NCBI GenBank assembly: GCA_017608295.1
Contig: JAFCGF010000004.1
Coordinates: 62,001-126,000, forward strand
DNA from: Candidatus Woesearchaeota archaeon
GTDB lineage: Archaea; Nanoarchaeota; Nanoarchaeia; Woesearchaeales; JAGVZT01
Direction: 5' to 3'
Length of the DNA: 64,000 bases
A program made the translations under genes and the position numbers. Position 1 is the first letter of the stretch; each line of letters begins with the position of its first letter. The notes under the pieces were generated by a model that worked only from the letters and a program-made list of their open reading frames with translations, did no database searches and had not been told where the DNA came from. This document shows positions 29,434 through 59,590 of the stretch, piece after piece.

Positions 29434-29751
29434 ATGTTTTGCCAGAAATGCGGTTCGATACTGCTCGTGAAGGAGATCAACAAGAAAAGAGTGCTGGTGT
29501 GTAGCGGATGCGGCGCCAAGAGCGCGGAAGCTGATTTCGTGCTCTCTGAAGAGGTGAAGAAGCCCGAGACCAAACTTGAGGTGATTGAGTCCGAACCCGA
29601 AGACACGTTGCCGCTGACTGAAGTAGAATGCCCAAAGTGCGGTCACCTGAAGGCCCACTGGTGGATGCTCCAGACTCGAGCCTCAGATGAGGCTGAAACG
29701 AGGTTCTTCCGCTGCCAGAAGTGCAAGCATACCTGGCGCGAATATCAGTGA
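29434..29751 (+). CDS. tfs: Transcription factor S (RPB9/TFIIS-like)
   Basis: Two zinc ribbons mark the family. The N-terminal one has CQKCG and CSGCG (residues 3-7 and 22-26). The C-terminal one has CPKCGH near 66 and CQKCKHTW near 93, with TRASDEAETRFF before it, the acidic DE tip that enters the polymerase channel. TFS stimulates RNA cleavage by arrested archaeal RNA polymerase. The length of 105 is typical. It follows the signal peptidase gene by nine bases. Confidence 0.93.
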   Translation: MFCQKCGSILLVKEINKKRVLVCSGCGAKSAEADFVLSEEVKKPETKLEVIESEPEDTLPLTEVECPKCGHLKAHWWMLQTRASDEAETRFFRCQKCKHTWREYQ

Positions 29752-30721: not shown

Positions 30722-31705
30722 TTACCTCATCCTTGGTAACCTATTTTTTGCTATGATAATCAGTTGTTCATCTGGTACGTCTCCGTGTTGTTCCAGTGCC
30801 TTCAGCTGCCCTGACAGTTTTGCTTTTATCCCCAAGGGATAATCTGTACCTAGCACTATCGAATGTGCTAAATCCGAGTGTTCCTTCAGTGCGCTTCCTA
30901 TGATACCTGCTTTGATTCTGTTGTTGGACAGGCTTGTCTCGAAATAGGCGTTGTCGTACTTGTGTGCGATCTCCAATGCGCGCTGGATACCGTATGCAAT
31001 GGGGAATGGTTTTCTGTCTTCAGACCAGTATTTCTTTGCCACAGGATTATTATCGCCTACTTTCCTTGGGTGTGCGAAGGCTCCGCCGTGGCCGATGACG
31101 AACACGTTCTTGGGATTGTTTCTGATGACTTCCTCGTAGAGGTCAGGATGTGTCAGGTGCGCTGTCTCTGGCCTGTCGTCAGTGTGGAACAGTATTGGTA
31201 AATGGTTCATTTTCGCAGTCCAGAGGACATCTTCCAGATTTTCATCAGTGAACTCGAAGAAGTCCTGCACTGGATGAATCTTGATGCCGTATACGCGACC
31301 ATTCATAGTCATATTAGTGAGGGTATCTTTCCCCTTCCAGAGAAGGCCTGTCTTTGGCCTGACTATACCGCGCTGCTCATACTCCTCGAATATGTGTTTC
31401 CACTCTGGGAACTCTGCCTTGACTTCATCGGGGAGCGCAGTGGGCATCCTAACCCAGTACCAGCCACGGATTTTTGTGTCCGGAACATGCTCCTGAACAA
31501 CATTCAGGCGGTTCAGGTCTGAGAAGATGCAGTACGCTTCCTCGACATTATCTCGTGTAAGGTGGTGTACTAAACCGTCGAGATTCCAGGGGTGGCCAGA
31601 GTCTCCGTAGGTCTTTCCCCGTTGTTTGCACACATAGGGATTGTACATCTCGTAGCTGTCAATGTGTATGTGCGCGTCTGCTAATGGTATGTCGTCGTAT
31701 TTCAT
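30722..31705 (-). CDS. Metal-dependent amidohydrolase (Amidohydro_2-like)
   Basis: The TIM-barrel metal-site motifs appear in order: DAHIHID (10-16), YGIKIHP (near 145), ILFHTDD (near 177), VIGHGGA (near 208) and VLGTDYPLG (near 286). They match the amidohydrolase-2 family, whose members are hydrolases or decarboxylases. The substrate is unknown. The ATG overlaps the stop of array gene A34 as ATGA and is read from the GAGAGAGG within that gene's WREV codons. It is therefore in the same translational chain as the 34 paralogs, which argues for a linked function. Confidence 0.88.
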   Translation of the reverse strand: MKYDDIPLADAHIHIDSYEMYNPYVCKQRGKTYGDSGHPWNLDGLVHHLTRDNVEEAYCIFSDLNRLNVVQEHVPDTKIRGWYWVRMPTALPDEVKAEFPEWKHIFEEYEQRGIVRPKTGLLWKGKDTLTNMTMNGRVYGIKIHPVQDFFEFTDENLEDVLWTAKMNHLPILFHTDDRPETAHLTHPDLYEEVIRNNPKNVFVIGHGGAFAHPRKVGDNNPVAKKYWSEDRKPFPIAYGIQRALEIAHKYDNAYFETSLSNNRIKAGIIGSALKEHSDLAHSIVLGTDYPLGIKAKLSGQLKALEQHGDVPDEQLIIIAKNRLPRMR

Positions 31706-32544
31706 GGTAATACCTCTCTCCAGCCTTCTTCATCGTCAGGGAAGTAAAGGTGGTTGTTGGTCTTCTCCATCTTCACTTTGCTTCCAGGTTTTTTTCTCCT
31801 CCAGAATTCATGTTCTTTCTTGAGATAATCGAGTATGAAGTATTCTCTCCCAGAAGGGCTAAGGTTTTCATCCTCCCCATGCCAGTAGATATTGTCTGGA
31901 TTCACGTAGAACTCACTCTCAGAGGCACCAAAGCCGATATACCTCAGCTCCACCTTTCCAATTACGTGGTATGTTGAATGATAGCCATCATGCCCGATGC
32001 TTGTGGTATCCCCATGATGAGTGATCTCAGTCCACACTGAGCTGGTGCCCAACTCACATAAGTATGCTCCGTTCGTCGACAACTGAAGACGTTTGTCCTC
32101 CTTGCCATCCAAACCGAATCCAACACAGAAGATATTATCTGTTATCATTGCTATGCTCATATCCATCTTGAAATCGTTGTAGCCCAGGTTAAACAGGGCC
32201 TGGACAAGAGGGTCCAAGAGATACGTGTTGAGGTACTCTCCCAGATATCCGTCAGCAAAGAGGCCAGTCTCAGCAGCATATGAGATGAGATTATCCAGGA
32301 ACTCATTATGGTCGAACTCTTCGTCAATGCGGGATTCTATGAATTCCTGCATCCGTCCCCCAATGCATTCACAGGTGAGGCTTCCAGGGTAATTCTCTAC
32401 CCTGTCAATCGAATCGTCAGAGGTGAATTCCTGGACAAGATTGACAATGAGTTGCAGGTTCGGAACCGGTCCGCCCGGGATGTAGGGCTCACTGTCGCTC
32501 TTCTCGGTTTCAGGAAGGTCATCAAAGCCGAGGTCTCTGCTCAT
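31702..32544 (-). CDS. Array paralog A34
   Basis: The last copy has 280 residues. The core is PLVQALFNLGYNDFKMDMS, close to consensus. The coil region is weaker than in most copies: it has no HC pair and reads LCELGTSSVWTEITHHGDTT. It ends NHLYFPDDEEGWREVLP, and the WREV codons give the ribosome binding site of the amidohydrolase. Confidence 0.9.
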   Translation of the reverse strand: MSRDLGFDDLPETEKSDSEPYIPGGPVPNLQLIVNLVQEFTSDDSIDRVENYPGSLTCECIGGRMQEFIESRIDEEFDHNEFLDNLISYAAETGLFADGYLGEYLNTYLLDPLVQALFNLGYNDFKMDMSIAMITDNIFCVGFGLDGKEDKRLQLSTNGAYLCELGTSSVWTEITHHGDTTSIGHDGYHSTYHVIGKVELRYIGFGASESEFYVNPDNIYWHGEDENLSPSGREYFILDYLKKEHEFWRRKKPGSKVKMEKTNNHLYFPDDEEGWREVLP

Positions 32545-33347
32545 TTAGGCTTCACCTCCTTCCAATCGCCGTTGCCGTCAGGGAAGTAAAGGCTGTTGCC
32601 ATTGGCGAAGAACGCCCGCTTCTTCTTGAGGAACTTGACAATCTCCTTTTCTGACTTCCCATAGTCTCTGTAGCTCTCACTCCCACTATCTAAGTAGACT
32701 CGGTCGTAGATTCCCTTCGGGTCGAGATAGAACTGGCAGTTCTTGGCTAGCTGGCCTATATACTCAACATCCACTTCTCCAATCACAATGAATGTGGAGT
32801 TCTCTGCAAGAGGACCCACTGACTCGGCGTCTCCGAGGTGGATGATTCGCGCGTATTCAGCTAGGTTGCCAAGCTCGTGAGCATTGAGATTCTTGAAGGT
32901 GACCATAGCAGGGCAGTGCTCCTCACCCTCCAGATCATAACCGAGACCGAGCACATCATCGTCAGTGTTCCAGCTCTTGAAGTCGAGCACAAGGTCATTG
33001 TAGCTGAGAGTGTAGAGCGCGGAGATAAGAGGCCCAAGGACAAGCCCGGTGTCTTTTCTTGGTCCCACTCGCGCGCCTGCTGTGATGATGAAATCCTCGA
33101 GGAACTCGTTCGCGTCGAAGTCCTCATCCCTATACCCTCTGATGAGGTGCTTGAGGCAATCCTCATCACCCATCCATTTCAGCTCAGGAGTCAGTGTAGG
33201 GAACTTGTCAGGTGTACGGGGAGTATAATAATGCTCAACAATAAGGTCAATGAGCTCGAAGTATTTGCTCTCAGTGCCCGGCTCATAGTGCTCACTGCCT
33301 GAGCGCTCACCCAGGATTAGGTCATCTAATGACAGGTCGCGGCTCAT
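32541..33347 (-). CDS. Array paralog A33
   Basis: It has 268 residues and opens MSRDLSLDDL, as A32 does. The core reads PLISALYTLSYNDLVLDFKS. The coils have lost the first Cys (NLNAHELGNLAEYARIIHLG) but keep NCQFYLDPKG. The end NSLYFPDGNGDWKEVKPK is canonical, with AAGGAGGTGAAG serving A34. Confidence 0.9.
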   Translation of the reverse strand: MSRDLSLDDLILGERSGSEHYEPGTESKYFELIDLIVEHYYTPRTPDKFPTLTPELKWMGDEDCLKHLIRGYRDEDFDANEFLEDFIITAGARVGPRKDTGLVLGPLISALYTLSYNDLVLDFKSWNTDDDVLGLGYDLEGEEHCPAMVTFKNLNAHELGNLAEYARIIHLGDAESVGPLAENSTFIVIGEVDVEYIGQLAKNCQFYLDPKGIYDRVYLDSGSESYRDYGKSEKEIVKFLKKKRAFFANGNSLYFPDGNGDWKEVKPK

Positions 33348-34177
33348 GGGGGCACCACATCCAGCTTTGGCTCAAAAAGCTCTGTCCAATCATCACCGTC
33401 TTTTGAGATAAAAAGCCTGTTTCCCCTCCTGAAAAAATTCCCGTCTAGCTTGCTCAGGCGGGATGTGCCTGGAGGGTTCCTGTGGAAAGCGAGTATTTTC
33501 CCCAGGGGACTCTCTCCAAGGCACTCAACATCCGAATTAAGAGCATATTTACGGACATTCCTAAGATAAAATTCGCAGTTGATAGCATCCTCACCAATCT
33601 TTCCAACATGGTCATCAAAGTAGAATGTTGAGTTCTCACACTTCCCACCGGCATACCTTGAGACCCCATCAAATTCCACAATGCAGTGCTTGAGTCCCTC
33701 ACCAAGCCACAAACAATCATATACGTTTGACGCCTTTCCTTTCTTAATGGTGAATGACAGGGGATTGGATTCAGTTGCCCTCACACCATCAAGGATAGAG
33801 CTCGGTGTCACAGGGAGCTGAGATAAATCAAGAGTGAGAGATGAATTTCCCTTAAGATATAGGAGCGGTATGACGTATTCGAAGATTATTCCTGAATTCA
33901 CAATCTGGTTATCACGGGCATCAGCCTGCAATCGGGAAACCAGGCCATCCAGGAACATCTGGCCATCGAGATTTTCCAGAGTCCTCAACTTAATATCAAA
34001 GTGCTTATCATATTGCTCTTTCCAATCAGCACTCGCCCAGTGTTTTTTGCTGAGGTAACTATACACCATGTCCCTAACTAATTCCTGCTGCGGCTCATAG
34101 TTCATACCAGGCTCATAGGGCTCGTCCTGCCTTTTCTCTCCTCCAGGGAGTTCATCCAGTGAGAGGTCGCGGCTCAT
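33344..34177 (-). CDS. Array paralog A32
   Basis: I start it at ATG 34177 (MSRDLSLDEL), giving 277 residues; an upstream in-frame ATG at 34216 lies inside A31. The core is divergent: YVIPLLYLKGNSSLTLDLS. It keeps HCIVEFDGVSRYAGGKCENS and NCEFYLRN. The end is DDWTELFEPKLDVVPP, extended past the usual stop, so the ribosome binding site for A33 (GATGTGGTG) is weaker than elsewhere. Confidence 0.88.
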   Translation of the reverse strand: MSRDLSLDELPGGEKRQDEPYEPGMNYEPQQELVRDMVYSYLSKKHWASADWKEQYDKHFDIKLRTLENLDGQMFLDGLVSRLQADARDNQIVNSGIIFEYVIPLLYLKGNSSLTLDLSQLPVTPSSILDGVRATESNPLSFTIKKGKASNVYDCLWLGEGLKHCIVEFDGVSRYAGGKCENSTFYFDDHVGKIGEDAINCEFYLRNVRKYALNSDVECLGESPLGKILAFHRNPPGTSRLSKLDGNFFRRGNRLFISKDGDDWTELFEPKLDVVPP

Positions 34178-35031
34178 TCTTCCCTTGTCACCTCCTTCCA
34201 GCGTGTCTGGGTCCATGTTTTCCAGAGGAACCGCTTCTCTTCCTCACCATCATATACATAGAGCGTATTCTTCCAGGGTGACCTTGAGTAGAACCAGAAA
34301 TCCTGCCTCATAAGCGACCAGGTGCTCTCAGGCTCCTCATCCATATACACGACGCAGGATTGGGGAGGGAAGCCCGTAGGGAGGCTCCCGTAATTTGATA
34401 CCAGCTCATCCAGGTAGATTGTGCATGACTCCGCCTCAAATCCTATATATTCTGCTGAGCCTTTGATAATGAATTCTGTGTGGTATGCCTTTGGCCCGAC
34501 GTACTCAGTATTCCCTATCAGCTTGAGCTTGCAGTGACGCGCACGGTATCCAAACCACGCCTTCCCGGGTCTTGCCAGCGTCGCTCTCAGGGGATTCTCT
34601 GGTGTGCCTTCAAGATGGGATGTGGGGTCGAACTCCACCTCTGGCTTCTCGAGGAGATTATAATCCACAAAGAAGTCATTGTGGCCCCGATTGTAGAGTA
34701 CCTGCATGAGTGGGATAAGGATGTTGTTCATCCGTCCGCAGGGCATATCTTCAAGATATCTCCTGGTGCCGAGCAACACTCCCTCGACAAGAGCGGCCCC
34801 GTTTTCTATTTCATAGGGTTCCAGGAGAGTGGTCATGCGCTCCACCCGCTCCTCATGCACCGGTTTAGAGTCGCGCATTTCCGCTATGGACTTCACCAGG
34901 GGTTTTTCAAAGAGCAGCTCGAGGATTGTCCGGACAAGCCCCTCGTCCACATTGGCTCCTGCCACGTAGGCTTCCCGCTCCTCAGGCTCAAGCACATCCT
35001 CAAGTCCAGAGAAAACGTCCTCGCGGCTCAT
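34174..35031 (-). CDS. Array paralog A31
   Basis: I start it at ATG 35031 (MSREDVFSGL), giving 285 residues. The core PLMQVLYNRGHNDFFVDYN is well kept, followed by HCKLKLIGNTEYVGPKAYHT, a clear coil. An insert WKTWTQT precedes the terminal RWKEVTREE. YVAG replaces YEPG near the N-terminus. Confidence 0.9.
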   Translation of the reverse strand: MSREDVFSGLEDVLEPEEREAYVAGANVDEGLVRTILELLFEKPLVKSIAEMRDSKPVHEERVERMTTLLEPYEIENGAALVEGVLLGTRRYLEDMPCGRMNNILIPLMQVLYNRGHNDFFVDYNLLEKPEVEFDPTSHLEGTPENPLRATLARPGKAWFGYRARHCKLKLIGNTEYVGPKAYHTEFIIKGSAEYIGFEAESCTIYLDELVSNYGSLPTGFPPQSCVVYMDEEPESTWSLMRQDFWFYSRSPWKNTLYVYDGEEEKRFLWKTWTQTRWKEVTREE

Positions 35032-35867
35032 CCGAGCACCTCCCAGTCGCCGTCTTTTAGCACAAGCTGGTCCCATCCATCCTTGCCGTCCGGGATAAAA
35101 AGTTCATTCCCCTTATGGAAGAATGTCCTCCACGAAAGCCCACTAATGGGCTCATACAGGCTGTCCGGCTCTGGAACTGATTGAAGGCTCACTATTGAAT
35201 TCCTCAGGTGAAGTCCCAATCCATAGCGCTCTGAATGGATCTCAAACTCACAGCTCGAAGCATCCGAGCCATAATCCAGACTTTCAAACGTAGGGACTGC
35301 ATAAGAGACAAATGTGCAATCCGTGCTATCCCTTCCAACCTGGGTCGCACTCCCCCGCAATGTAAGCTCACAATTTTTACAACGGTATCCAAATTTCTGA
35401 CCCACTCTTCCCGAATAGACTACTGTAAGGGGGCGGTCTCGCGAACCCTCAAGGTACATTGCCATATCCAAGGTATCACATTCCGGAGAAGGCATTTGCA
35501 TCAGGAAATCATTGTACCCAAAATCATAGAGTGCCTGTAGTAACGGTGAACAAAATGGATTAAGGGACTGGAAATGCACACTTGGATCAACAACCGGACG
35601 CAGTGTCAAGGCAGTTATCACCTCGTCCAAGAAGCGGTTAGCGTCAAAATCCGGAGTGATCTCCGGCTCAATTAGCTCAATGAACCTATCTGAACACATG
35701 CGATGCCCTTTTGTTGCCCCCTGCCAGTACAGAGAGGATATAGTCCCGTCCTCATGCTGCCGCACTATACGGTCAACAAGGTTTTTATGAAAACCCGTGG
35801 TGCCCGGGACATAGGGCTCTCTCTGGGCAAGCTTCTCCAGTTCCTCAAAGCCCTCCAGGCGGCTCAC
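35028..35867 (-). CDS. Array paralog A30
   Basis: It probably starts at GTG 35867 (279 residues), overlapping the A29 stop as GTGA. The core PLLQALYDFGYNDFLMQMPS loses the final DL. The coils NCELTLRGSATQVGRDSTDC are among the clearest. After NELFIPDGKDGWDQL it continues with VLKDGDWEVLG, a second C-terminal W-E-V that provides GGGAGGTG for A31. Confidence 0.88.
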   Translation of the reverse strand: MSRLEGFEELEKLAQREPYVPGTTGFHKNLVDRIVRQHEDGTISSLYWQGATKGHRMCSDRFIELIEPEITPDFDANRFLDEVITALTLRPVVDPSVHFQSLNPFCSPLLQALYDFGYNDFLMQMPSPECDTLDMAMYLEGSRDRPLTVVYSGRVGQKFGYRCKNCELTLRGSATQVGRDSTDCTFVSYAVPTFESLDYGSDASSCEFEIHSERYGLGLHLRNSIVSLQSVPEPDSLYEPISGLSWRTFFHKGNELFIPDGKDGWDQLVLKDGDWEVLG

Positions 35868-36598
35868 AGGGTCACCTCTTTCCATTCGCCGTTCTCGTCC
35901 GGCTCGTAGAAGGTGTTTCCTCGCTCGAGAAGCTTCTTGAAATACGCCTTGGGAAAAGGAACATCAAGGTTCTTCACTCCCTCGCTGAGGAAGAACCTGC
36001 AATCCACTGGACCGTTGTCAATATCAAGGTTGTCATAGTAGGTCGCGACCATAAGCCCTGGATTCAGCGTATCGAGATAAAAATCAGAAGATTCTGCCCT
36101 CCATGCTGGGTGAGGGGAGTGCCCATTCAATCTCAGTATGCAGTGCTTTGCCTTTTGACCAAACTGATAGATATTACCTATATATGAGCATTCAAGTGGC
36201 CGCTCAGGAGTGCCCTCCAGCACATATCCTACTAAGGACAGGTGCTGACGATTAGAGGACCTGACCTGCAAGGGAGACAGGTCTATGAGGAAACCATTAT
36301 CTCCTCGGCTATAGAGGTGCTGGACCACGCTGTCAAGGACATAGCCCTTGGGACCAATATTCTTCCGGTCAATCTCGTCAGCCAGCCTCATCACAAGGGC
36401 GTCGAGCAGGGTGCCTGCCTCAAGGCCTAGCGGGATGATATCCTTAAGCAGCTCCTCCATGCTCTCATGCTCGTCGGTTGGGTGTGTGTGCGAGATAATC
36501 TGCTCTATGAGGGCAGGGTCTACTTCAGCGCCCGGCTCATAGGGCTCCTGGTCAGAGGGCTTGTCAATGGGAAGGTCATCGAGAGAGGTTCTGCTCAT
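35864..36598 (-). CDS. Array paralog A29, among the shortest copies
   Basis: It has 244 residues. The core SVVQHLYSRGDNGFLIDLS departs from NDF. The coils read HCILRLNGHSPHPAWRAESS and DFYLDT. The region before the C-terminus is shortened, and the end is NTFYEPDENGEWKEVTL. Confidence 0.9.
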   Translation of the reverse strand: MSRTSLDDLPIDKPSDQEPYEPGAEVDPALIEQIISHTHPTDEHESMEELLKDIIPLGLEAGTLLDALVMRLADEIDRKNIGPKGYVLDSVVQHLYSRGDNGFLIDLSPLQVRSSNRQHLSLVGYVLEGTPERPLECSYIGNIYQFGQKAKHCILRLNGHSPHPAWRAESSDFYLDTLNPGLMVATYYDNLDIDNGPVDCRFFLSEGVKNLDVPFPKAYFKKLLERGNTFYEPDENGEWKEVTL

Positions 36599-37377
36599 AC
36601 TGCTTTCACCTCCTTCCAGTTTCCTGCCTTGGTCTTCTTGTACAGCTTATTGTTATCTTCAAAGAAACGCTCGAACATGAGCTCCTCAACATGCTCTTTC
36701 TTCACTGCGTCTGTAATCTTGAAGTTGCACTTAAAGCACGGGCTCGGCGTATCCAGCGCATAGATGAGCTCCGCCTCCATGATAAAGTCGGTGGTGCTGG
36801 CGAATCCCGCGATGTTCTTCGCGTCACCGCTGAAAGTGATAGACGACCTGTTGGCCTGCGTACCCCCGTAGTGGCAGTCTCCGACTATCTCCATCTCACA
36901 GTACTTGACATTGATACCAAACTCAGTTGCATTTCCCTTGTAAAGCAATTTCAGGGGCTTACCAGGCTGGCCAATGAGGTCATTCGCCATGTATTTTGGT
37001 GTAATCGGGACTCGTGAGAGGTCGATGATGAATTCATTATAGCCCAGGTCATAGAGCGCCTGGACTGCGGGGTCGAGGAGGCAGCTTGAGAATGTGATGT
37101 GCTCGAGTGTAGTCTTTTTCAGGATTCCTTCAACAAGGGCGTCAAGGAATGCCTGGGCGTCGAAGTCTTCTTCAGGGAATCCGTTCACAACATCAGTGAA
37201 GCGCTCCACCCAGATGTTACCAAAACTATATTCATTAATAATGTCCATATCTGAGAGGCGGCTAAACTTATTCACAAGATTATCCAGAGCTTCGGAATCA
37301 TAAGGGAGCTTTCCAGGCTCGTAGTGCTCACGCTCTTCAGGAGTGATGAAATCCTCAAGCCCATCGAACTTACCCAC
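36595..37377 (-). CDS. Array paralog A28
   Basis: It has 260 residues and starts at GTG 37377, overlapping the A27 stop by 8 bases (GTGGGTAA). The N-terminus MGKFDGLEDFITPEEREHYE lacks the SRD start. The core PAVQALYDLGYNEFIIDLS is close to consensus. YCEMEIVGDCHYGGTQANRS is the first coil. The end is NKLYKKTKAGNWKEVKAV. Confidence 0.88.
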   Translation of the reverse strand: MGKFDGLEDFITPEEREHYEPGKLPYDSEALDNLVNKFSRLSDMDIINEYSFGNIWVERFTDVVNGFPEEDFDAQAFLDALVEGILKKTTLEHITFSSCLLDPAVQALYDLGYNEFIIDLSRVPITPKYMANDLIGQPGKPLKLLYKGNATEFGINVKYCEMEIVGDCHYGGTQANRSSITFSGDAKNIAGFASTTDFIMEAELIYALDTPSPCFKCNFKITDAVKKEHVEELMFERFFEDNNKLYKKTKAGNWKEVKAV

Positions 37378-38191
37378 GAAGGCACACCCCCTCCCAGCTG
37401 CCGTCTTCCTTCAGGAAGCACACCTTATTGCCCTCGCCGTACCAGGTCTTGGCCCTGAGGCGGTTGCGCTGCATCTCATCTGGATAATGATGGATATAGA
37501 ACGTGTTGTGCTCTCCTGGATAATTGAACTGGCTGAATAAGTGGAGCTTGTTAAGCTCCTTGAAATAAAGGTGATAGGTGCACTGCTTACTACTCACTGC
37601 CAGGGTATTCACAGGGCTATATAGGTGGAACTCGCTGGCATACGCGTTTGATGCAGCCCAGTCAGAGGTACCGTAGAGTTCCAGCCTACAATGCCTCGCC
37701 TGCGTACCAAAGTCCCCGAAGTCACCGCGGTACGCTGCATTGAGGAGCTTCTGAGGGCTGCCGCGGAGGTTGAGCGCAGGAGTGAGGTATTCTATCCCTG
37801 AGAAGCACGAATAATCCTGCGTAAAGTCGTTGTGGCCGAACCTGTGCAGGGCTTGCATGAGAGGAGTAAGGAGAACATTCACTGCAAGGTCCTGCATCCC
37901 CAGCTCAACCCTGCTATGCACGTGCCACGCGACATCGTTGAGAAAAGTGTTGGCATCAGAATCAAATCTGCCTGAAAGGAGTTCCTCAATATGGTCTGCA
38001 CAGCGCTCGCCGTTGTAGCCCATGCCTTTTCCTGCATCATACGCAGGATACAGCTCCTTAAGTGTGCCGTCAAGGTAGAGTGAGAGCAGCTCATCTATCA
38101 GGAGGTTCTCGCAGAGAGAGCTCGGCTGGTAATGCTCGCGCTCTCCACAGAACGGTCCGTCAGGGAAATCATCGAAGATGTCCCTATTCAC
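37370..38191 (-). CDS. Array paralog A27, close relative of A26
   Basis: It starts at GTG 38191 (273 residues), sharing GTGAATAG with the A26 stop. The core PLMQALHRFGHNDFTQDYSC, the coil ARHCRLELYGTSDWAASNAY and the tail HYPDEMQRNRLRAKTWYGEG are nearly those of A26, so the two are a recent duplication or exchange sequence. The end WEGVCLRG replaces WKEV, with GGGAGGGGGTG as the ribosome binding site. Confidence 0.9.
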   Translation of the reverse strand: MNRDIFDDFPDGPFCGEREHYQPSSLCENLLIDELLSLYLDGTLKELYPAYDAGKGMGYNGERCADHIEELLSGRFDSDANTFLNDVAWHVHSRVELGMQDLAVNVLLTPLMQALHRFGHNDFTQDYSCFSGIEYLTPALNLRGSPQKLLNAAYRGDFGDFGTQARHCRLELYGTSDWAASNAYASEFHLYSPVNTLAVSSKQCTYHLYFKELNKLHLFSQFNYPGEHNTFYIHHYPDEMQRNRLRAKTWYGEGNKVCFLKEDGSWEGVCLRG

Positions 38192-51245: not shown

Positions 51246-52138
51246 GGAGTCACCTCCTTCCATTCGCCGGGATTGTCCTGGTCTGCGATGAATATCCTGT
51301 TGCCTCGCTCAAAGAAGTCAGGGCTGATATCACCCTTGGGCTCTGTGCGCTTCCTCCGCTCAAGCTCAGCAGTGAAAGAGAAGCTGTAGTCCTTAAGAGA
51401 GTAAATGTCGAGCTCGTAGATGCCACGGCTCGGCTTCTTGCCCTTTAGCTCTTTGTACACATCTCCATGCTCTGCTTTGGGAAAATAGAAATCGCAGTCC
51501 GCAGCCCCCCTGCCTATGTGGGCTGACTTGCCGTTGATAATGAATCTGGAATCCGTCGCCACGCAACCCACATCGTACACGCCCCCCGACACTGTCAGCT
51601 GCGCATGCTGGGCGCCCAGTCCACCTGAGAATAGCTCACACTCTCCTAAGGCGATTGATGCCCTGCTAAGGATAATGTTTAGGAGGAGAGGGTCCTCCTC
51701 ATTTCCGACCATGGAATGCATCACATACCTCGGGTTCTGCGGCCATGGCCTGAAATCAAGCACCAGCTCGTTCTTGCCGTACCAGTAGAGGTGCTTAACC
51801 ACAGGTGAGAGGAGGAAGTAGGCATGCTCAAAGACCTCCCAATCCTCATGCACAGTCCATTCCTCAGCTACATTCAGCGTCCAGATGACATCATCCAGAA
51901 AGCCCTGGGCTTCCTCTGGCTCCATCACTCTCAATTCTTCTGCATGCTCGTGCACTGTCGAGGACATCATCTGAATATCTGAATTCCGTATCCTCCTAGG
52001 GCTCCCGATATAAGTCAAGTACTCTGTCACAAGCTCCTCGACGAGTTCATGATTGTGGATAGAAAGGATTCCAGGCTCGTATTCCTCTTCAGACCTCTTC
52101 TCGAGGTCAGGCATCCCGTCAAGCATATCACGGCTCAT
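51242..52138 (-). CDS. Array paralog A10
   Basis: It has 298 residues, one of the longest. The core PVVKHLYWYGKNELVLDFRP replaces NDF with NEL. The coils HAQLTVSGGVYDVGCVATDS and DCDFYFPK are clear, with a charged insert SFTAELERRKRTEPKGD before the end NRIFIADQDNPGEWKEVTP. Confidence 0.9.
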   Translation of the reverse strand: MSRDMLDGMPDLEKRSEEEYEPGILSIHNHELVEELVTEYLTYIGSPRRIRNSDIQMMSSTVHEHAEELRVMEPEEAQGFLDDVIWTLNVAEEWTVHEDWEVFEHAYFLLSPVVKHLYWYGKNELVLDFRPWPQNPRYVMHSMVGNEEDPLLLNIILSRASIALGECELFSGGLGAQHAQLTVSGGVYDVGCVATDSRFIINGKSAHIGRGAADCDFYFPKAEHGDVYKELKGKKPSRGIYELDIYSLKDYSFSFTAELERRKRTEPKGDISPDFFERGNRIFIADQDNPGEWKEVTP

Positions 52139-52929
52139 AAGGGCACCACATCCTTTCGTTCAGTTATCTGCTTCCATCCGTCTTTATCGTCAGGGTAATA
52201 GAGCTTGTTGTTCTCGTCCCAGAAGGGCCAGTCAACGACCGAGCCGAGACCCTTCTTCGCGTAGAAGGTGCAGCCCACAGTGCCTGCACACACATGGCCT
52301 GATTGCTCAAGCTCATACGTGCAGAACCTGCTGGTAAAAGCGAGATTTCCTGCTTTCCCGTGCAGGAGATAATGGGAGTTCTCACTGCCCCCGCCTGCTG
52401 AATGTGCATCCCCATACAGCTCCAGGACACAGTGCTCGTTGCCGTGGCCAAAATTCCACGCATCCCCCACGAGCTTCAGCACAAGGGGGTCTTCCTCAAT
52501 CCCGAGGAGGTCACAGGCAAGGTCATCGACTTCAGAATGCTCATATCTTGAAAAAGGAGTTATATCCAGCTGGAAGTTGTTGTAGTTCAAGTTGTACAAG
52601 CCCTGTACGACCACATTCAGGAAAACATCGAGGTCGTTAATCATTACATTATCAGTCCAATTGGTGGAGAGGCGGATGACAAGCCAGTCGAGGAACGCAT
52701 TATGGCTAAAATCATCATCAATCCCTCTTGAGAGTATCTGAGTGGTCTCGATAACCGATTTCTGGAACGTGGACTGCTCGAAATACTCACATCCCTTTGA
52801 CTTTTCATCATAATACTCAATCATCCTGTCCACAAGTGCGAGGTTACCGTCCCCGTCCCCTGAAGTGTAGGAGATGTCAAGAGTATCCTTGGGAGAGTGC
52901 TCATACCCATCGAACATGCTCCTGCTCAC
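52135..52929 (-). CDS. Array paralog A9, clearest coil pattern
   Basis: It starts at GTG 52929 (264 residues). The core VVVQGLYNLNYNNFQLDITP varies NDF to NNF. Four coils can be read in a row: HCVLELYGDAHSAGGGSENS, HYLLHGKAGNLAFTSRFC, TYELEQSGHVCAGTVGC and TFYAKKG. The end NKLYYPDDKDGWKQI continues with TERKDVVPL. Confidence 0.9.
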   Translation of the reverse strand: MSRSMFDGYEHSPKDTLDISYTSGDGDGNLALVDRMIEYYDEKSKGCEYFEQSTFQKSVIETTQILSRGIDDDFSHNAFLDWLVIRLSTNWTDNVMINDLDVFLNVVVQGLYNLNYNNFQLDITPFSRYEHSEVDDLACDLLGIEEDPLVLKLVGDAWNFGHGNEHCVLELYGDAHSAGGGSENSHYLLHGKAGNLAFTSRFCTYELEQSGHVCAGTVGCTFYAKKGLGSVVDWPFWDENNKLYYPDDKDGWKQITERKDVVPL

Positions 52930-53714
52930 AGTTTCACCTCTGTCCATTCACCGTCGTCATCCGGGACATAGATTTTGTTGCAGTCCATCGTGAAAGTCTG
53001 CCACAGGTTCATGACATCAGGATTCTTCCTTAATTCCTCAACATCAATTCCCTCCTTCACATAATAGGTGCATCTCTGCGGCACAGGACATACTGCGGCG
53101 TGGCCGTCAGCGTATTGCTGGCTGTAGTACTCAACTGAATCAATGTAGTCCAGCAGGATTTCAACATTCATTGAAGGAAGATAGAATTCACATTCAGTGG
53201 CTCCAAGGCCTGCATATTTCAACTCTCCATCAAGAGTGAAACTACAGAATGAAGCGCCAGTTCCGAGTTCCCATGGTTTGCCTCTGTAATGGACAGTGAG
53301 GGGTTCCTCTTTAGTTCCCTTTAGATCTTGTCCCACTTGGCCGACGTTAATCCAACAGCTTAAGTCAAGAGTGGGATTGTTCAACCCGTCATCATAGAAG
53401 CACTGAACAAGATAATCTGAGACTCTCAGGCTAAGCTCGGTGCCAAAAGGTGTCCCATAGTGCTTAAAACAGAGGAAGTATTGGTCAAAGAATTCTTCTG
53501 TATCGATACTGCTCAAATCTTCAGGTAATGTTTTGTACACTGCTCGGATTATCAGCTTCCTAACAGTCACTGGTGCACTGGCAACACCTTCAACTAAGTG
53601 GTGAATCAACTCTTGTGCAAGTCTTGATTCAATACTCTCTTTACCTTCTAGGTACACTTCCCTGCCTGGCTGAGGCTCCACATCAAGCCCGTCGAACATG
53701 TCGTCGCGGCTCAT
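52926..53714 (-). CDS. Array paralog A8
   Basis: I start it at ATG 53714 (262 residues, MSRDDMFDGLDVEPQPGREV). YLEG replaces YEPG. The core YLVQCFYDDGLNNPTLDLSC is divergent. The coils FCSFTLDGELKYAGLGATEC and EFYLPS are short and clean. The end NKIYVPDDDGEWTEVKL is near canonical. The gene is relatively AT-rich. Confidence 0.9.
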   Translation of the reverse strand: MSRDDMFDGLDVEPQPGREVYLEGKESIESRLAQELIHHLVEGVASAPVTVRKLIIRAVYKTLPEDLSSIDTEEFFDQYFLCFKHYGTPFGTELSLRVSDYLVQCFYDDGLNNPTLDLSCWINVGQVGQDLKGTKEEPLTVHYRGKPWELGTGASFCSFTLDGELKYAGLGATECEFYLPSMNVEILLDYIDSVEYYSQQYADGHAAVCPVPQRCTYYVKEGIDVEELRKNPDVMNLWQTFTMDCNKIYVPDDDGEWTEVKL

Positions 53715-54607
53715 TCTGGCAGCACCTCCTCCCATTGTCCTGCTTCGTCGGGCACATACAAATAGCATCTCTCATCTCTCCAGTGCGGTGAGAAGAAGTG
53801 ACTATCTTCCAGCCAGGCTTTTTCCAAAGCGCTGACTTCTGACGAAATAAAGTAATTGCACCCATCTGCATATTTTGGAGGTCCTCCATGATGGCCGCGC
53901 TCTTCCCTCACATCTATTGAGAGGGCGCTATTCAAGTAGAAGTCACTGTTCTTGGCAAGCCTTCCAGAGTATATCACCTCATGAGTTGAGCGGAATACTG
54001 ATTCCTCTGCCTTGAATCCCAATTTTTGCACATCACCAACTACAGTGATATCACAATTTTTGACATAGGCCCCTACATTAGCTGCATAATCAGTACTGAC
54101 AGTCAGTCTCAATGGCCCCAGTGATTCGTCTGCCTTCCCGCTCAGATAGCTCGCCACTTCCCCGGTTTTCAGCGGAAGACACGTAAGGTCCAACGTCAGG
54201 TCATTGTATCCACTGCGGTACAAGGCCTGAATAAGGGGATTGCCAAGCGTGGTGAGACGCGAAAAATCTATCTGCTCATCCTCTATGTCCTGCCTGGGGT
54301 GGAGGCTGTGAAAAAGGATTGTGTCCAAGAAGAGCTGAGCCTGAAAATCCCGAGGCAAGTACTCCTGGAGCAATTCTTCGAGATACTCGCACCTATGGCG
54401 ATGTTGCTGGTACATGAAGCCTCCAAAGGAAGAGTGGAGCCTGGCTCTGTCCAAAGCCTCATATAATGTGGCCCCGACAGCTGAATCCGCAATCATTCTC
54501 CTGAGGATAGTGTCTGCCAATTTGACATATGTACTATCTCCCGGTTCATAGTGCTCCATCTCAGACTTTTCGATGGGGAGTTCGTCGAGAATGCTGTCGC
54601 GGCTCAT
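53711..54607 (-). CDS. Array paralog A7
   Basis: I start it at ATG 54607 (298 residues). The N-terminal linker is long and basic (YEALDRARLHSSFGGFMYQQ). The core PLIQALYRSGYNDLTLDLTC is kept. The coils NCDITVVGDVQKLGFKAEES and NSDFYLNS are present. It has HHGGPPKYADGC near residue 240. The end CYLYVPDEAGQWEEVLPE gives GGAGGTG for A8. Confidence 0.9.
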   Translation of the reverse strand: MSRDSILDELPIEKSEMEHYEPGDSTYVKLADTILRRMIADSAVGATLYEALDRARLHSSFGGFMYQQHRHRCEYLEELLQEYLPRDFQAQLFLDTILFHSLHPRQDIEDEQIDFSRLTTLGNPLIQALYRSGYNDLTLDLTCLPLKTGEVASYLSGKADESLGPLRLTVSTDYAANVGAYVKNCDITVVGDVQKLGFKAEESVFRSTHEVIYSGRLAKNSDFYLNSALSIDVREERGHHGGPPKYADGCNYFISSEVSALEKAWLEDSHFFSPHWRDERCYLYVPDEAGQWEEVLPE

Positions 54608-55488
54608 GGAATCACCTCTTTCCACTTGCCTTCGCTATCCAGTCGATAGAGTGTGTTCCCGAAGGTGATGTTGATACCAGGCACTCTCGCAAGGAGGGCC
54701 TTCAATTGTCCCCTCGTTCGCTCATATCTGGAGTACCAGAAGGGTTTCTCCCTGAGCACAGCCATCGCATCGTCTCCGATATCCTCTGTACGGATGAAGT
54801 AGGTGTTGTTCCCCCGTGTGATGAAGGGACTCGCGTAGAGGAGTGGCTCGACTGAGTCCAGAGTGAAGGTGCTGTCCCTGGAAAAGCTTCCTGCGCCTTT
54901 GAGGGGACCGTACATGTTTATCGTGGATTTCCTCGCGCCGACTCCCATTGAGGAGGCAGTGCCCTCATAGTCCAGCTCCACATGGCGCAGTCTCCAGCCA
55001 ACGCATGCGGCATCTCCCTTGCAAGAGATAACAAGAGGATTCTCTTCGTTCCCATACACCATGTCAAGGAAAGAGAAGGGGGTGAAATCCAACTCAGTGA
55101 GGTCAATGTGGAAATCGTTGTAGCTCTGCCTGTATAACGCCTGCACTAGGGGTGCGAAGACAAGGTCAGTGTGCTTTGCCTGTTTTTCTGTGATGAGCCT
55201 CTCTTCGATGCTTGGAATCATAGGCGCGCAAGCAGCTATGAGCGCGCTGGGGTCGAAACGCTCACGGGTGTAGGACTCTAACACCTCATCGAGTACATAG
55301 ACGGACTTATGGAAACGGGCCTTATGGTCCCGAACACTGAAGTACGCATCGAATATCTTGCCCTCTTCATAGGTCTCCAGGATGCTCTCGAGCAGCTGTC
55401 CGGGATAGTCCAGCTTGCCCGACACATACGCCTCGCTTCGCTTCTCGAACTCGAGACCTTCCAATCCGTCAAGCAGCTTGCGGCTCAT
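54604..55488 (-). CDS. Array paralog A6, Cys-less coils
   Basis: I start it at ATG 55488 (294 residues, MSRKLLDGLEGLEFEKRSEA). The core PLVQALYRQSYNDFHIDLTE is canonical. The coils keep the glycine spacing without Cys (HVELDYEGTASSMGVGARKS, then STFTLDS), so Cys is not essential to the fold. A 30-residue basic linker precedes the end NTLYRLDSEGKWKEVIP. Confidence 0.9.
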   Translation of the reverse strand: MSRKLLDGLEGLEFEKRSEAYVSGKLDYPGQLLESILETYEEGKIFDAYFSVRDHKARFHKSVYVLDEVLESYTRERFDPSALIAACAPMIPSIEERLITEKQAKHTDLVFAPLVQALYRQSYNDFHIDLTELDFTPFSFLDMVYGNEENPLVISCKGDAACVGWRLRHVELDYEGTASSMGVGARKSTINMYGPLKGAGSFSRDSTFTLDSVEPLLYASPFITRGNNTYFIRTEDIGDDAMAVLREKPFWYSRYERTRGQLKALLARVPGINITFGNTLYRLDSEGKWKEVIP

Positions 55489-56312
55489 TCTGGCAACACC
55501 TCCTCCCATCCGCTCTTACCATCAGGGACATAGAGCTTATTCTCATGGTCCCAGAAGCAGTTCATCTCAATCTGCCTGAGGAGGTAATCATCTGTCTCAT
55601 CCACATAGAAACTGCATGAGCCGCAAATCTTGTATCCAGATAATGAATCGGATCCCTCATCAAAACAATAGGCGCTTCGGTCCACAAAGGGCATTGAGGT
55701 CATATCAGGAATGTAGAATTCTGAATGTGTAGCCCCAGAAGCGACTGCATTAATTTCCTCTCGCGGATTGTTGATGCGGATGACAGAGTGCTCCGCGTAT
55801 TCTCCCACAACTTGCGTAGTGCCACTGAAACCAATATAGGCATAGGCTATGCGCCATCCCAGCTGTGCACAGCTTCCCCCAATGCATGTGACTTTCAAAA
55901 CATTATCCTCTTCTCCCTTCAGCACAGTGAAGAGTGAAGAGTAGTTTCCTGAGGGGGGCACACAGGTAAGGTCCAGCGTGAAATCGTTCAGCCCTGCGCT
56001 GTGCAGCGCCATCATCGACTCTGTGAGCAGGTGGTCAAGGTGAATGAATCGTGACGGGGCGAGAGACCAGCCAAGGGTAATCGCGTCAAGGAACATATTG
56101 TAGTCAAAGTCAGGAATGTAATCCAGCTGTTTAGGGACGTTCTCCCGGATAAACTCAGTTGTTTCCTTGTGGGTGCCGAGCTTCAGGCCTTGCGCATTCC
56201 CCAGGAGCTTCTGGACAAGGACTGAATCGTAAGGAAGCGGGCCGCCTGACTCGTAAGACTCGGTGAGTTTCTCCTGGCCTTCAAGCGCATCCCTCAGGTC
56301 ATCGAGAGTCAT
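55485..56312 (-). CDS. Array paralog A5
   Basis: It has 275 residues and starts MTLDDLRDALEGQEKLTESY, without SRD. The core SMMALHSAGLNDFTLDLTCV keeps NDFTLDL. The coils lack the first Cys (YAYIGFSGTTQVVGEYAEHS), but SCSFYVDETD is present. The end NKLYVPDGKSGWEEVLPE is near canonical. Confidence 0.9.
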   Translation of the reverse strand: MTLDDLRDALEGQEKLTESYESGGPLPYDSVLVQKLLGNAQGLKLGTHKETTEFIRENVPKQLDYIPDFDYNMFLDAITLGWSLAPSRFIHLDHLLTESMMALHSAGLNDFTLDLTCVPPSGNYSSLFTVLKGEEDNVLKVTCIGGSCAQLGWRIAYAYIGFSGTTQVVGEYAEHSVIRINNPREEINAVASGATHSEFYIPDMTSMPFVDRSAYCFDEGSDSLSGYKICGSCSFYVDETDDYLLRQIEMNCFWDHENKLYVPDGKSGWEEVLPE

Positions 56313-57100
56313 TCTAGGGGAATCACCTCTTTCCAGCCGCCTGCTCCGTCAGGAACCCGGAGCGTGTTCTCTTTCAGGAAGAACTTCTCCGGCAACGTCT
56401 CAAGGTCAATGTCATCTGAATCAGCGTAGACAGTGCAGCGCTTCATGAGAGTACTTAGCTTAGGAGTATAGTGGGCAGGCACATGAAACTCGCTGTCCTC
56501 TGACACCATCCCGAAATATTTGAAGCTGCCCTGCAATGTAAGGATTGAATGCTTTGCGCCGCAGGCCACGTTCACTACAGTGCCCTTGTACGATAGGTCG
56601 CAGTAGTCCAGCCCTATCCCTACCTCTTTGATGTCGCCGATGCACGTGACCTTCATGTACCTGTCCGGCTCTCCTCTTAGATCACAAGCAATAGAGTTGA
56701 GCCCATTGGGATAGGTAGTAGGATACGGGCTGACATCAAGCAGGAAATCGTTGTACTGGAGGTTGAAGAGTATATGCATCACAGCAGAGACGAGGTGTCC
56801 GCCGCTTGTGAGATAGGAATCTGTCGCTTTTGCGTAGAGCTTGTGGAGCAGCCCGTCGAGAAGTGCATTAGGGTTGAACTCATCTCTGGGATAGAGGCAG
56901 AGCTTATAGGCAGCACGGCCGATGACAGGCTCGAGATTATCCCGTGTCTCGCTGAAATCCTCTTCAGGGATGTCAAGGTAGAGCTCGAGAATCTCATCCA
57001 GGATTCCCTCGGGATAGCCGAGCTTTCCAGGCTCGTAGGGCTCACGCTTCCCAGTAAGTGAGTCGTCTTTCAGCTCCTCACCGAGGATGTCGCGGCTCAC
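56309..57100 (-). CDS. Array paralog A4
   Basis: It has 263 residues and the full start MSRDILGEELKDDSLTGKRE. The core AVMHILFNLQYNDFLLDVSP is partly changed. The coils YCDLSYKGTVVNVACGAKHS and ILTLQGSFKYFGMVSEDS are clear. The end NTLRVPDGAGGWKEVIPLE is canonical, with AAAGAGGTG serving A5. Confidence 0.9.
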   Translation of the reverse strand: MSRDILGEELKDDSLTGKREPYEPGKLGYPEGILDEILELYLDIPEEDFSETRDNLEPVIGRAAYKLCLYPRDEFNPNALLDGLLHKLYAKATDSYLTSGGHLVSAVMHILFNLQYNDFLLDVSPYPTTYPNGLNSIACDLRGEPDRYMKVTCIGDIKEVGIGLDYCDLSYKGTVVNVACGAKHSILTLQGSFKYFGMVSEDSEFHVPAHYTPKLSTLMKRCTVYADSDDIDLETLPEKFFLKENTLRVPDGAGGWKEVIPLE

Positions 57101-57888
57101 TCAGGTTTCACCTCGTACCACTCCTCGTTCTCGTCCATGAGATAGAGCGTGTTGCCTCTCATCCAGAATGCAGCCTCCTTGAACCAGTCTCTCAGGAGGT
57201 CAACGACACTTTTCTCGGAGAACGTGCGCATCGTGAAGGTTGGGGCAAACTTGGAGAGGTCAAAATCCTTGATGCGGAAGCTCGAGTCGGTTGCTCCCTG
57301 CGCAAGGGCTATGAAGCTGCACGTGCCGTAGAGTGTGAGGTCAGAATCGCGCATAGCGAAGCCCACTACGCTTGAGTTTCCATGGAAGCTTATCTCCGCG
57401 AACTTGGTGAGTGTAGCGAGATTATTGGCAGTGTGCACGCGATAGCGCACCTTGAGGGGGTTTTCAACTGTACCGCGCACATACGGGCCAACGGCATCTA
57501 TCTCAGCGCCAAGGCGCCTCAGGTCCAGCTCAAGGTCATTATATCCCAATGTATGGAGCGCGTTGACCAAAGGGTCGAAGAAAAGGTGTGAATACTCAAC
57601 ATTGGAGGAAGTTCTGCCCACCTCACCTATGAGCTCGTCGAGAAAGGGCTGGGCCTCGAAATCCTCAGTGATGATCTCTGAGAGCTTTGATTCCATCTCC
57701 TCTTCTCTCATGCGAACCTGAGCGACAAACTCCTTGGTATTGGCCACCTTAAAGCTCTCATTCATATAGAACTCGCTCACGAACTCCTTCATCGCCTTGG
57801 TGTCGTAGCCAAGGTCAGCTTCCTCGTACACTGTGCGGTCAGGGTCATTATCTAAGTGCAGTCCGTCAAACACGTCTTCTCTCGGCAT
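57097..57888 (-). CDS. Array paralog A3
   Basis: I start it at ATG 57888 (263 residues, MPREDVFDGLHLDNDPDRTV); it shares one base with the A2 stop (TAATG), the only such junction. The core PLVNALHTLGYNDLELDLRR is kept. The coils are without Cys (FAEISFHGNSSVVGFAMRDS). The end is NTLYLMDENEEWYEVKPE. Confidence 0.9.
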   Translation of the reverse strand: MPREDVFDGLHLDNDPDRTVYEEADLGYDTKAMKEFVSEFYMNESFKVANTKEFVAQVRMREEEMESKLSEIITEDFEAQPFLDELIGEVGRTSSNVEYSHLFFDPLVNALHTLGYNDLELDLRRLGAEIDAVGPYVRGTVENPLKVRYRVHTANNLATLTKFAEISFHGNSSVVGFAMRDSDLTLYGTCSFIALAQGATDSSFRIKDFDLSKFAPTFTMRTFSEKSVVDLLRDWFKEAAFWMRGNTLYLMDENEEWYEVKPE

Positions 57889-58793
57889 TATGGCTTCACC
57901 TCTTTCCACTCACCAGGATTGTCCTCATCGGGGATGAAGAGCTGGTTTCCCCTGTCGAAGAAGAGCTTGTCGAGAAGAGTCTCCTTACACTCATCCCCAC
58001 ACTTGAACGTGACAGAATAGAACTCCTGCTCTGGCATGTCTTCAAGGTATCCGTACCCTGTTATAGTAACCGCAATCGGGTCAACCAACAGTATCTCCTT
58101 AATCTCCGCGTCCTCCACTCCATACATGTAGAATTCGCTCACAAAGGTGCTCTGTCCTATCTGGTGCACCCTGCCCTCTATGTGGTATTCGGAGAGACTG
58201 CTGTCCACCCCTACTTCCTTGGCATCACCTACTAGTCGGATAATGGCACAATCGTTATTAGTACCCACTGTCACGCTTGGCTCCTCATTTTCCCCAGTGA
58301 AGACCACAATGGAGAGGGGGTTATCCTCATCGCCTTTCAGCTTCTGGCAAAGAGGGTTTGGCTGGCAAGGGAGGTATCTCGCGTTGTAGACGAGGTCATT
58401 GTAGCCTGCGCCATGAAGTGTCTTGAAGACAGGCGCGAAAAGATTCTCGTCAGCCCAGTGGATGACCTTATCATCACTCTCCCTGGCGAGTCCTGCAAGG
58501 ACATCATCTATGAAAGCCTGGGCATCGTAGCCCCCTGCGGGATTGATGAGTACAAGCAGGTTATTGTCTATGTAATCACCAAGTTGTACCATACTGTCGA
58601 ACCAGTCCCACGCCCATGCGTCCAGACTTGCGCTCGAAGTATGGTGTTGAGGGATTACCTTTCTCAGATAGTCAAGGAGGCATTCTACCAGTGCCGGGTC
58701 GGTGACTGCCTCGCCGGGCTCGTATCTCTCTCTCTTCCCTTCTTTCCTTTCCTTGAGGATATTGTCAAGCCCTTCGAACATGTCGCGGCTCAT
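57888..58793 (-). CDS. Array paralog A2
   Basis: I start it at ATG 58793, which gives 301 residues, the longest member. The core PVFKTLHGAGYNDLVYNARY is one of the most divergent. DCAIIRLVGDAKEVGVDSSL is the first coil, with SEFYMYGVED later. A long segment including EFYSVTFKCGDECKETLLDK precedes the end NQLFIPDEDNPGEWKEVKP. Confidence 0.9.
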   Translation of the reverse strand: MSRDMFEGLDNILKERKEGKRERYEPGEAVTDPALVECLLDYLRKVIPQHHTSSASLDAWAWDWFDSMVQLGDYIDNNLLVLINPAGGYDAQAFIDDVLAGLARESDDKVIHWADENLFAPVFKTLHGAGYNDLVYNARYLPCQPNPLCQKLKGDEDNPLSIVVFTGENEEPSVTVGTNNDCAIIRLVGDAKEVGVDSSLSEYHIEGRVHQIGQSTFVSEFYMYGVEDAEIKEILLVDPIAVTITGYGYLEDMPEQEFYSVTFKCGDECKETLLDKLFFDRGNQLFIPDEDNPGEWKEVKP

Positions 58794-59590
58794 TCTGGAG
58801 TCACCTCCTGCCACTCATCGTCCTCTCCCTTGTGGAAAAGCTTGTTCTTCCGCTCGAAGAAGCCCTCGTCCTTGAGGGTCTCGGAGATGGTCTTCTGCCC
58901 CCCGAGTATCGCGTCATAGAGCTCGTTCTTCAGCTCATCTTCACTGAAATCATCCTCGCCCGGATGGAGCATGTAGGACTCCTCATCGATGTACACGTCA
59001 CAGTCCTCTGCGCCGTATGCTATCATGAGATACTGGCTGTTCTTGGAAAGCATGATAGTCGAGTTCTTCGCGCCCTGGCCAGCAACCATCACGTAGCCGC
59101 CGAGGGCTAATGTCACATTCTCGATATTCTCTGCTACACGGTGGCTGTATCCGTTCCTCACCATCAGAATGAGGGGGTCGTCTTCCTTGCCCTTGAGGTC
59201 GCAGCCGATGCCGCTCACGGTCTTGCTTCCCTCCAGCGCTATGAAATCGAGAAAGAGCTTCTTGTGCCCATTATTGTAGAGCGCCTGGATCAGCGGAGAG
59301 AAGAACTCGTCGAAATTCTGTGAAAATCTAATGGTCTCGGACTCCTCTGCTTCCCTCAGCATATGCTCAAGGAACTGGTTTGTCTCAAAATTAGCTTCTG
59401 TATTGGCTTCCAGCAGCGTAGAGAACTCTTTTACCAGCTGTTTCCTCTTTTCGGAAGGTTTTTCCACTGCTTTGTATGCGTCAAGAAGGAGTTGTGGAAG
59501 AGATTCGTCGTACGCAGCGATGCCTGGCTCATAGACGTGACGCTCAGTTTTTTCGAGGAGAAGCTCCTCTGTGAACAGGTCTCGCGGCAT
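58790..59590 (-). CDS. Array paralog A1, first gene of the operon
   Basis: It has 266 residues and starts MPRDLFTEELLLEKTERHVY at the first ATG after the promoter. The core PLIQALYNNGHKKLFLDFIA has KKL in place of NDF. The coils are Cys-poor (NVTLALGGYVMVAGQGAKNS, EDCDVYIDEE). The end NKLFHKGEDDEWQEVTPE has W-Q-E-V, which gives CAGGAGGTG for A2. Confidence 0.9.
   Translation of the reverse strand: MPRDLFTEELLLEKTERHVYEPGIAAYDESLPQLLLDAYKAVEKPSEKRKQLVKEFSTLLEANTEANFETNQFLEHMLREAEESETIRFSQNFDEFFSPLIQALYNNGHKKLFLDFIALEGSKTVSGIGCDLKGKEDDPLILMVRNGYSHRVAENIENVTLALGGYVMVAGQGAKNSTIMLSKNSQYLMIAYGAEDCDVYIDEESYMLHPGEDDFSEDELKNELYDAILGGQKTISETLKDEGFFERKNKLFHKGEDDEWQEVTPE

Follow-up and report, generated by a model that had tools for sequence, protein, structure and literature searches.

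Thirty-four tandem paralogs in a woesearchaeal genome as possible leader-docked modules of a MoxR-VWA machine

The nearest described kind of system to the one considered here is the bacterial MoxR-vWA ternary conflict system (Kaur et al. 2020, PMC7159879), the logic of which appears to be close. These systems occur in VMAP, iSTAND, FtsH and beta-propeller types, and combine a MoxR AAA+ ATPase, a von Willebrand factor A (VWA) protein with a metal ion-dependent adhesion site (MIDAS), and variable linked proteins; their effectors share small lineage-specific adaptor domains (EADs), and only rarely include a metallopeptidase. Further pairs, namely NorQ-NorD, RavA-ViaA and CbbQ-CbbO, serve particular enzyme complexes (PMC9976466). 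For MoxR-VWA proteins of these kinds, it is stated that the MIDAS binds a peptide that is extended or unstructured, or else an acidic residue on its target (PMC7159879, PMC9976466). The subject of the present analysis is a 64,000-nucleotide stretch (‘the window’) of a Candidatus Woesearchaeota archaeon (assembly GCA_017608295.1, contig JAFCGF010000004.1, positions 62,001 to 126,000), and in particular an array of 34 tandem paralogous genes within it.

The reading that is favored, tentatively and with a probability of roughly 0.42, is that the array supplies interchangeable recognition modules that would dock, by means of a conserved N-terminal leader, onto a predicted MoxR AAA+/VWA-peptidase machine of the kind that some related DPANN genomes encode next to members of this family. 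The machine of the relatives resembles the ternary systems in its MIDAS-bearing MoxR-VWA pair and its variable linked proteins, and the short leader of these proteins may be compared with the EADs described in PMC7159879. In contrast to those systems, an HExxH motif is regular here (21 of 21 VWA partners), the third component consists of tandem GXGXG-like paralogs that carry a short leader and share no Pfam family, and the hosts are DPANN archaea; the word Woesearchaeota is absent from the main text of PMC7159879. With NorQ-NorD, RavA-ViaA and CbbQ-CbbO (PMC9976466) the relatives' pair has in common an AAA_5/AAA_lid_2 ATPase and a DxSxS protein encoded side by side, whereas here a single pair adjoins many paralogs and the VWA partner bears HExxH.

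The array lies on the minus strand between 59590 and 31702, where it takes up 27,889 of the 64,000 bases of the window (43.6%), and consists of 34 co-directional homologous open reading frames (ORFs), all of them open and none broken. An iterated profile recovered all 34 and matched no other ORF of the window (among non-overlapping ORFs of at least 90 residues). An earlier note, made by a model from the letters alone, had claimed a family of 34 co-directional, intact genes without signal peptides that fills about 44% of the window, and each of these points held. None of the 34 proteins shows signs of a signal peptide or of a membrane segment (the highest 19-residue hydropathy is 1.42, and 0.98 near the N-terminus). 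The genes of the array, together with the one that adjoins its end, are as follows.

31702..59590, minus: whole array of 34 tandem overlapping paralogs (ORFs, alignment, profile, junctions)
58790..59590, minus: paralog 1, first of the array; AlphaFold model 1
57888..58793, minus: paralog 2
57097..57888, minus: paralog 3, with the TAATG junction; one codon longer in the alignment used
56309..57100, minus: paralog 4
55485..56312, minus: paralog 5
54604..55488, minus: paralog 6
53711..54607, minus: paralog 7
52926..53714, minus: paralog 8
52135..52929, minus: paralog 9
51242..52138, minus: paralog 10
50400..51245, minus: paralog 11, of the subgroup 11-13
49570..50403, minus: paralog 12, 61% identical to 13
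48743..49573, minus: paralog 13
47904..48746, minus: paralog 14
47056..47907, minus: paralog 15
46196..47059, minus: paralog 16
45345..46199, minus: paralog 17
44545..45348, minus: paralog 18
43772..44548, minus: paralog 19
42960..43775, minus: paralog 20, the most typical; AlphaFold model 2
42193..42963, minus: paralog 21
41411..42196, minus: paralog 22
40638..41414, minus: paralog 23
39817..40641, minus: paralog 24
38993..39820, minus: paralog 25
38184..38996, minus: paralog 26, 57% identical to 27
37370..38191, minus: paralog 27, with an 8-nt overlap
36595..37377, minus: paralog 28, with an 8-nt overlap
35864..36598, minus: paralog 29
35028..35867, minus: paralog 30
34174..35031, minus: paralog 31
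33344..34177, minus: paralog 32
32541..33347, minus: paralog 33
31702..32544, minus: paralog 34, last of the array
30722..31705, minus: Amidohydro_2 gene, not a paralog, with a 4-nt overlap at the array's end (Pfam, junction)

There are thirty-four junctions, 33 between paralogs and one between the last paralog and the amidohydrolase gene: 31 are 4-nt (A/G)TGA overlaps, two are 8-nt overlaps and one has the form TAATG. Upstream of 31 of the 34 starts there is a Shine-Dalgarno match of at least 5 nt, as compared with 9.1% of random internal positions, and 27 starts have one of at least 6 nt (1.7% of random positions), the TAATG junction being unscored and entered as a miss. The letters of these matches fall within the final codons of the preceding gene, chiefly those that encode a W-K-E-V motif. 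Because of this pattern of junctions and Shine-Dalgarno matches, several true starts were placed downstream of the first listed start codon, and the corrected ORFs encode 244-301 residues. The entire run is probably expressed as a single transcript.

The copies are old and are maintained by purifying selection, as measured in the five most similar pairs (11/12, 11/13, 12/13, 26/27 and 33/34), for which synonymous divergence (dS) is 1.3-1.9 and the ratio of nonsynonymous to synonymous divergence (dN/dS) is 0.20-0.39, with region limits in that calculation that are approximate. Pairwise identity among the paralogs averages 24% (range 15-61%), and differs only slightly between adjacent copies (27% on average) and copies 20 places apart (23%). 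These values bear out the earlier proposal of many diverged versions under selection, and the low identity and high dS together rule out both an assembly artifact, which had been named as a possible undoing of that proposal, and recent amplification. Conservation is unevenly distributed along the proteins, which comprise in order an acidic N-terminal leader, variable helices, a predicted GXGXG-like beta-helix and a conserved C-terminal hairpin. Within the leader, column identity is 0.53 at positions 1-7 (about 0.45 if the start methionine is left out), 0.21 at positions 8-17 and 0.56 at positions 18-23, with a tyrosine at position 20 that is invariant in all 34 and with four to eight acidic residues per leader; for the parts of the body the values are 0.14 (first helices), 0.27 (later helices), 0.22 (beta-helix), 0.12 (linker) and 0.36 (C-terminal hairpin). 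The two ends of the leader and the C-terminus are thus conserved, and the first helices and the linker are variable.

The fold is predicted to be a helical bundle joined to a GXGXG-like beta-helix, on the basis of AlphaFold models of paralogs 1 and 20 (mean confidence scores, pLDDT, of 85 and 89, the latter 88.6 before rounding), part of a check that the earlier note had proposed. Foldseek returned no match in the PDB at an E-value of 0.001 for either model, no Pfam family was matched by more than one of the 34 members (best E-value 0.019), and NCBIfam gave no match for the single window member scanned. The description of the family as unrecognised therefore stands in so far as there is no shared Pfam family, nor any NCBIfam or PADLOC match for one member, and no well-characterised family emerged by Pfam; it falls short in that the predicted beta-helix is GXGXG-like. 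The GXGXG domain itself (PF01493, the C-terminal domain of glutamate synthase, also found in FwdC) is matched at its Pfam gathering cut-off by three homologues at one locus of a relative (L096) and by no window member, even at an E-value of 1; relative to PF01493 proteins, the window family adds the helical bundle, the leader and the C-terminal hairpin, and no enzyme context was seen for it. The possibility of an FwdC or glutamate synthase subunit was weakened accordingly, the profile match having an E-value of only 0.026. Similarity to the CARP domain of cyclase-associated protein (Foldseek E-value 0.26 at best, with no sequence match and no actin context) may reflect merely a common beta-helix arrangement. 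A viral origin was also considered, and two scans of viral contigs found no relative. A protein database search with the 34-row alignment returned three proteins, all from the array's own contig, and thus recovered only 3 of the 34 themselves, so that its silence carries little weight; a search with a single member found only itself.

More can be learned from related genomes (in which genomes and loci are numbered with the prefixes G and L). The family profile found matches in 7 of 193 relatives, 20 of 371 genomes of the phylum and 17 of 352 genomes of the order, which are overlapping sets; in all, 27 distinct other genomes match. Part of these match over the beta-helix only, and two of them, G282 and G386, were left out of the fetched set. 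The earlier note had suggested that homologous arrays differing in copy number would support a repertoire, and such arrays are indeed present: the fetched stretches hold 13 copies in G374, 13 in G482, 11 in G448, nine in G427 (where the genes are mostly scattered) and seven in G238, down to one, and in none of them is a copy number of 34 reached. These counts are lower bounds because the genomes are fragmented, and the ORFs of the relatives are longest-ORF calls with uncurated starts. Profile comparison by hhalign connected the window family with the arrays of G211, G238, G369 and G374, and gave low probabilities for L170, L176, L096 and L173-L175.

In the relatives the leader looks like a module of its own. 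It is clearly better conserved than the body in six of the nine arrays of other genomes that were measured, with leader and body identities of 0.65 and 0.32 in G238, 0.80 and 0.33 in G369, 0.59 and 0.25 in G374, 0.77 and 0.21 in G092, 0.50 and 0.27 in G068, and 0.48 and 0.22 in G001, where the leader figures are biased upward by the anchoring of leaders through patterns (four proteins without an anchor were dropped). Leaders differ from genome to genome. At L096, ten consecutive genes have one leader in common, and scans of eight of them gave matches to TPR for three and to GXGXG for three; leaders are likewise shared by unrelated bodies at L097 and L147. At L097 (8875-11607), one long leader is common to a NosD-type protein and a member of the family, and their neighbors, by eye, resemble protein kinase and PP2C phosphatase genes. 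Three MoxR-VWA loci (L173, 4288-17577; L174, 7155-14089; L175, 7634-13248) hold tandem paralogs that go unmatched by the family profile, with other bodies and common leaders of their own, such as GIEKREKKE, and at L181 (726-5067) a VWA/HExxH gene is surrounded by tandem proteins whose N-termini are nearly identical (MKSKQDYL...). Since one leader is found on unrelated bodies, and since MoxR-VWA loci hold other leader-sharing paralogs, the leader is what a shared partner would most likely recognise.

The candidate partner was found in five genomes (G211, G238, G369, G374 and G233), each of which has a MoxR-type AAA gene among or beside its family members; in four of them this gene was scanned and matches Pfam AAA_5 and AAA_lid_2, and in G233 it was assigned through a profile. 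The MoxR clade is defined by a helix-2 insert, whereas the assignment as MoxR-type made here is based on these two Pfam families, for five proteins in all, and on profile matches. The same five genomes encode a protein of 612-713 residues with HExxH and VWA MIDAS motifs. In bacteria, proteins of the DUF2201 type combine a putative metallopeptidase with a VWA domain, a lead that is unconfirmed here: Pfam gave no DUF2201-type match in the five VWA proteins scanned, and a weak VWA_2 match in one of them. A profile of the VWA protein matched in 27 of 371 genomes, and loci from 17 of these were inspected, the ten with weaker matches not being fetched. Family members and MoxR are both present at 12 of the 21 VWA loci examined (at L171 and L176 by way of weak matches). 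HExxH and DxSxS are present in all 21 VWA proteins and TDG or SDG in 16; a strict Walker A pattern is present in 14 of the 21 MoxR proteins, and the alignment has GEPGFAKT in some others. In a later test on six genomes newly matched by the window profile, the pair lies in or beside the array in three (G448, G482 and G441), and in G482 a single strand carries 13 members, the VWA gene and the MoxR gene in succession. This test was given more weight than Fisher tests (9/20 against 18/351, and 7/20 against 4/351), which are partly circular because the VWA alignment was drawn from loci of family matches. This MoxR-VWA context of the relatives lay outside what the earlier note could see, as it was made from the window alone.

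Under the favored reading, the conserved leader, which is acidic and predicted to be disordered, would serve as a docking peptide, to be read either by the VWA MIDAS or by the AAA pore; the variable bodies would bind different targets, the motor would unfold or the peptidase cut whatever is delivered, and the outcome would be a conflict or quality-control response. The recognition role of the paralogs is putative, and so is the step from a tag to foreign or damaged targets. A more ambitious form, in which up to 34 leader-tagged beta-helix adaptors select what one MoxR-VWA zinc peptidase destroys, and so constitute a paralog-based archaeal immune or self/non-self repertoire, is considered unlikely.

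Several observations weigh against the leader-docking proposal. The profiles found no MoxR or VWA gene within the 64-kb window, and a VWA-family search (7,999 candidates scored, and insensitive) returned 12 proteins, none of them on the contig of the window (218,496 bp). The window-type clade (the 34, with two in G001) has not been seen beside a MoxR-VWA pair, and the contigs of G449, G488 and G520 (6.4-11.4 kb) show no such pair. Any VWA match is present in only 9 of 20 genomes with family matches. At nine of the 21 VWA loci the profile finds no family member, five of them (L173-L175, L177 and L181) having, by eye, other tandem leader-sharing genes, and L178, L179, L180 and L182 showing none; the MoxR-VWA machine is therefore not tied to the beta-helix fold. 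The contrast between leader and body is small in G427 (0.38 and 0.26) and absent in G211 (0.76 and 0.70), and the figure for G101 is unusable as its register is off. Selection in the closest pairs is purifying and not positive, and PADLOC, which covers known anti-phage systems, found no family for paralog 20, one paralog of L133, one MoxR protein and two VWA proteins.

The site of the array can be compared with the nearest relative. The host is, by its sequence, a Woesearchaeota-type archaeon; its prolyl-tRNA synthetase (ProRS; 62039-63490) is 66% identical to that of Candidatus Woesearchaeota RIFCSPHIGHO2_02_FULL_62_20 (G001, locus L001). In G001, proS and the amidohydrolase gene are adjacent, with 63 bp between the aligned parts and no array, and are followed by homologues of the window's TFIIS-like gene (29434-29751) and signal-peptidase-like gene (28756-29424, so called by eye). 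The window's own proS and amidohydrolase gene, on the other hand, have the array and two plus-strand genes between them. This neighborhood was seen in only 1 of 80 ProRS loci, and insertion and loss at the site therefore cannot be polarised. Two solitary family genes lie elsewhere in G001 (L092 and L093) and group with the window's 34 at an SH-like likelihood-ratio support (SH-aLRT) of 100, in a tree confined to members with E-values below 1e-20 (91 rows) in which 53 of 88 inner branches are unsupported; the MoxR-VWA pair of G001 adjoins tandem leader-sharing genes. The two genes between the array and proS (59960-61875, plus strand) have, by eye, N-terminal hydrophobic stretches, and the second matches a thrombospondin type 3 repeat weakly, below the cut-off. 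At 282-15868 (minus strand) mostly uncharacterised genes surround a 682-residue AAA ATPase (3433-5481), and 11 genes of this stretch have G001 homologues in the same order (contig C70). A SecA homologue of 1490 residues with four SecA Pfam domains (22864-27336, plus strand) lies 4.4 kb from the array. At 18387-19485 (minus strand) a HEPN gene stands beside a winged-helix nucleotidyltransferase gene, a layout of the toxin-antitoxin type.

The juxtaposition of arrays and MoxR-VWA pairs could also mean that the paralogs are clients: the pair would act as a chaperone that folds them, or assembles them, into a single mixed structure, such as a heteropolymer or shell, with a separate place for every version. 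This is somewhat unlikely: the gene overlaps and the embedded ribosome-binding sites point to joint synthesis, the conserved ends and the purifying selection are compatible with fixed interfaces, and NorQ-NorD is a maturation chaperone according to PMC9976466 (it and RavA-ViaA assist other complexes), but copy numbers found from 1 to 34, and the scattered genes of G427, are hard to reconcile with a fixed assembly, and a single leader on unrelated bodies points to a tag.

Alternatively, the leader might be a maturation or export signal that is clipped by the HExxH domain of the VWA protein, with the bodies leaving the cell, perhaps towards a host. A leader followed by a variable body does resemble precursor families, every VWA partner examined has the HExxH motif, and SecA, rare in these archaea, is encoded close to the array; however, secretion by way of a hydrophobic signal peptide is rejected, as none of the 34 paralogs has such a segment, and SecA (as SecA_DEAD) is present in only 4 of 145 relatives, including G001, where it lies on another contig. 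The export reading is accordingly held to be very unlikely. The window has no MoxR-VWA pair, and its array might work without one, for example with the AAA ATPase operon at 282-15868, the gene order of which is conserved in G001; in G090 and G173, moreover, family members adjoin genes that by eye resemble kinase or PP2C genes. Against this, the stretch of G001 that carries the operon has no family member, and the one gene of the operon that was searched for (1604-3388) was found in only 1 of 23 genomes checked, so that this explanation too is quite improbable.

With respect to the proposal of leader-docked modules, Pfam, NCBIfam and PADLOC provided no tie to the VMAP, iSTAND, FtsH or beta-propeller classes, the models of which were not searched one by one. 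No description of such a system was found among the open-access papers listed, as covered by titles and the beginnings of abstracts, nor in the portions of PMC7159879, PMC9976466 and PMC10907252 that were read. If the proposal is correct, DPANN archaea, which are known for their small genomes, would hold a dedicated 28-kb repertoire of a single family, and the MoxR-VWA kind of system would gain both an HExxH-bearing VWA protein and a new, tagged third component, for which a simple rule may be proposed: the leader binds the VWA protein.

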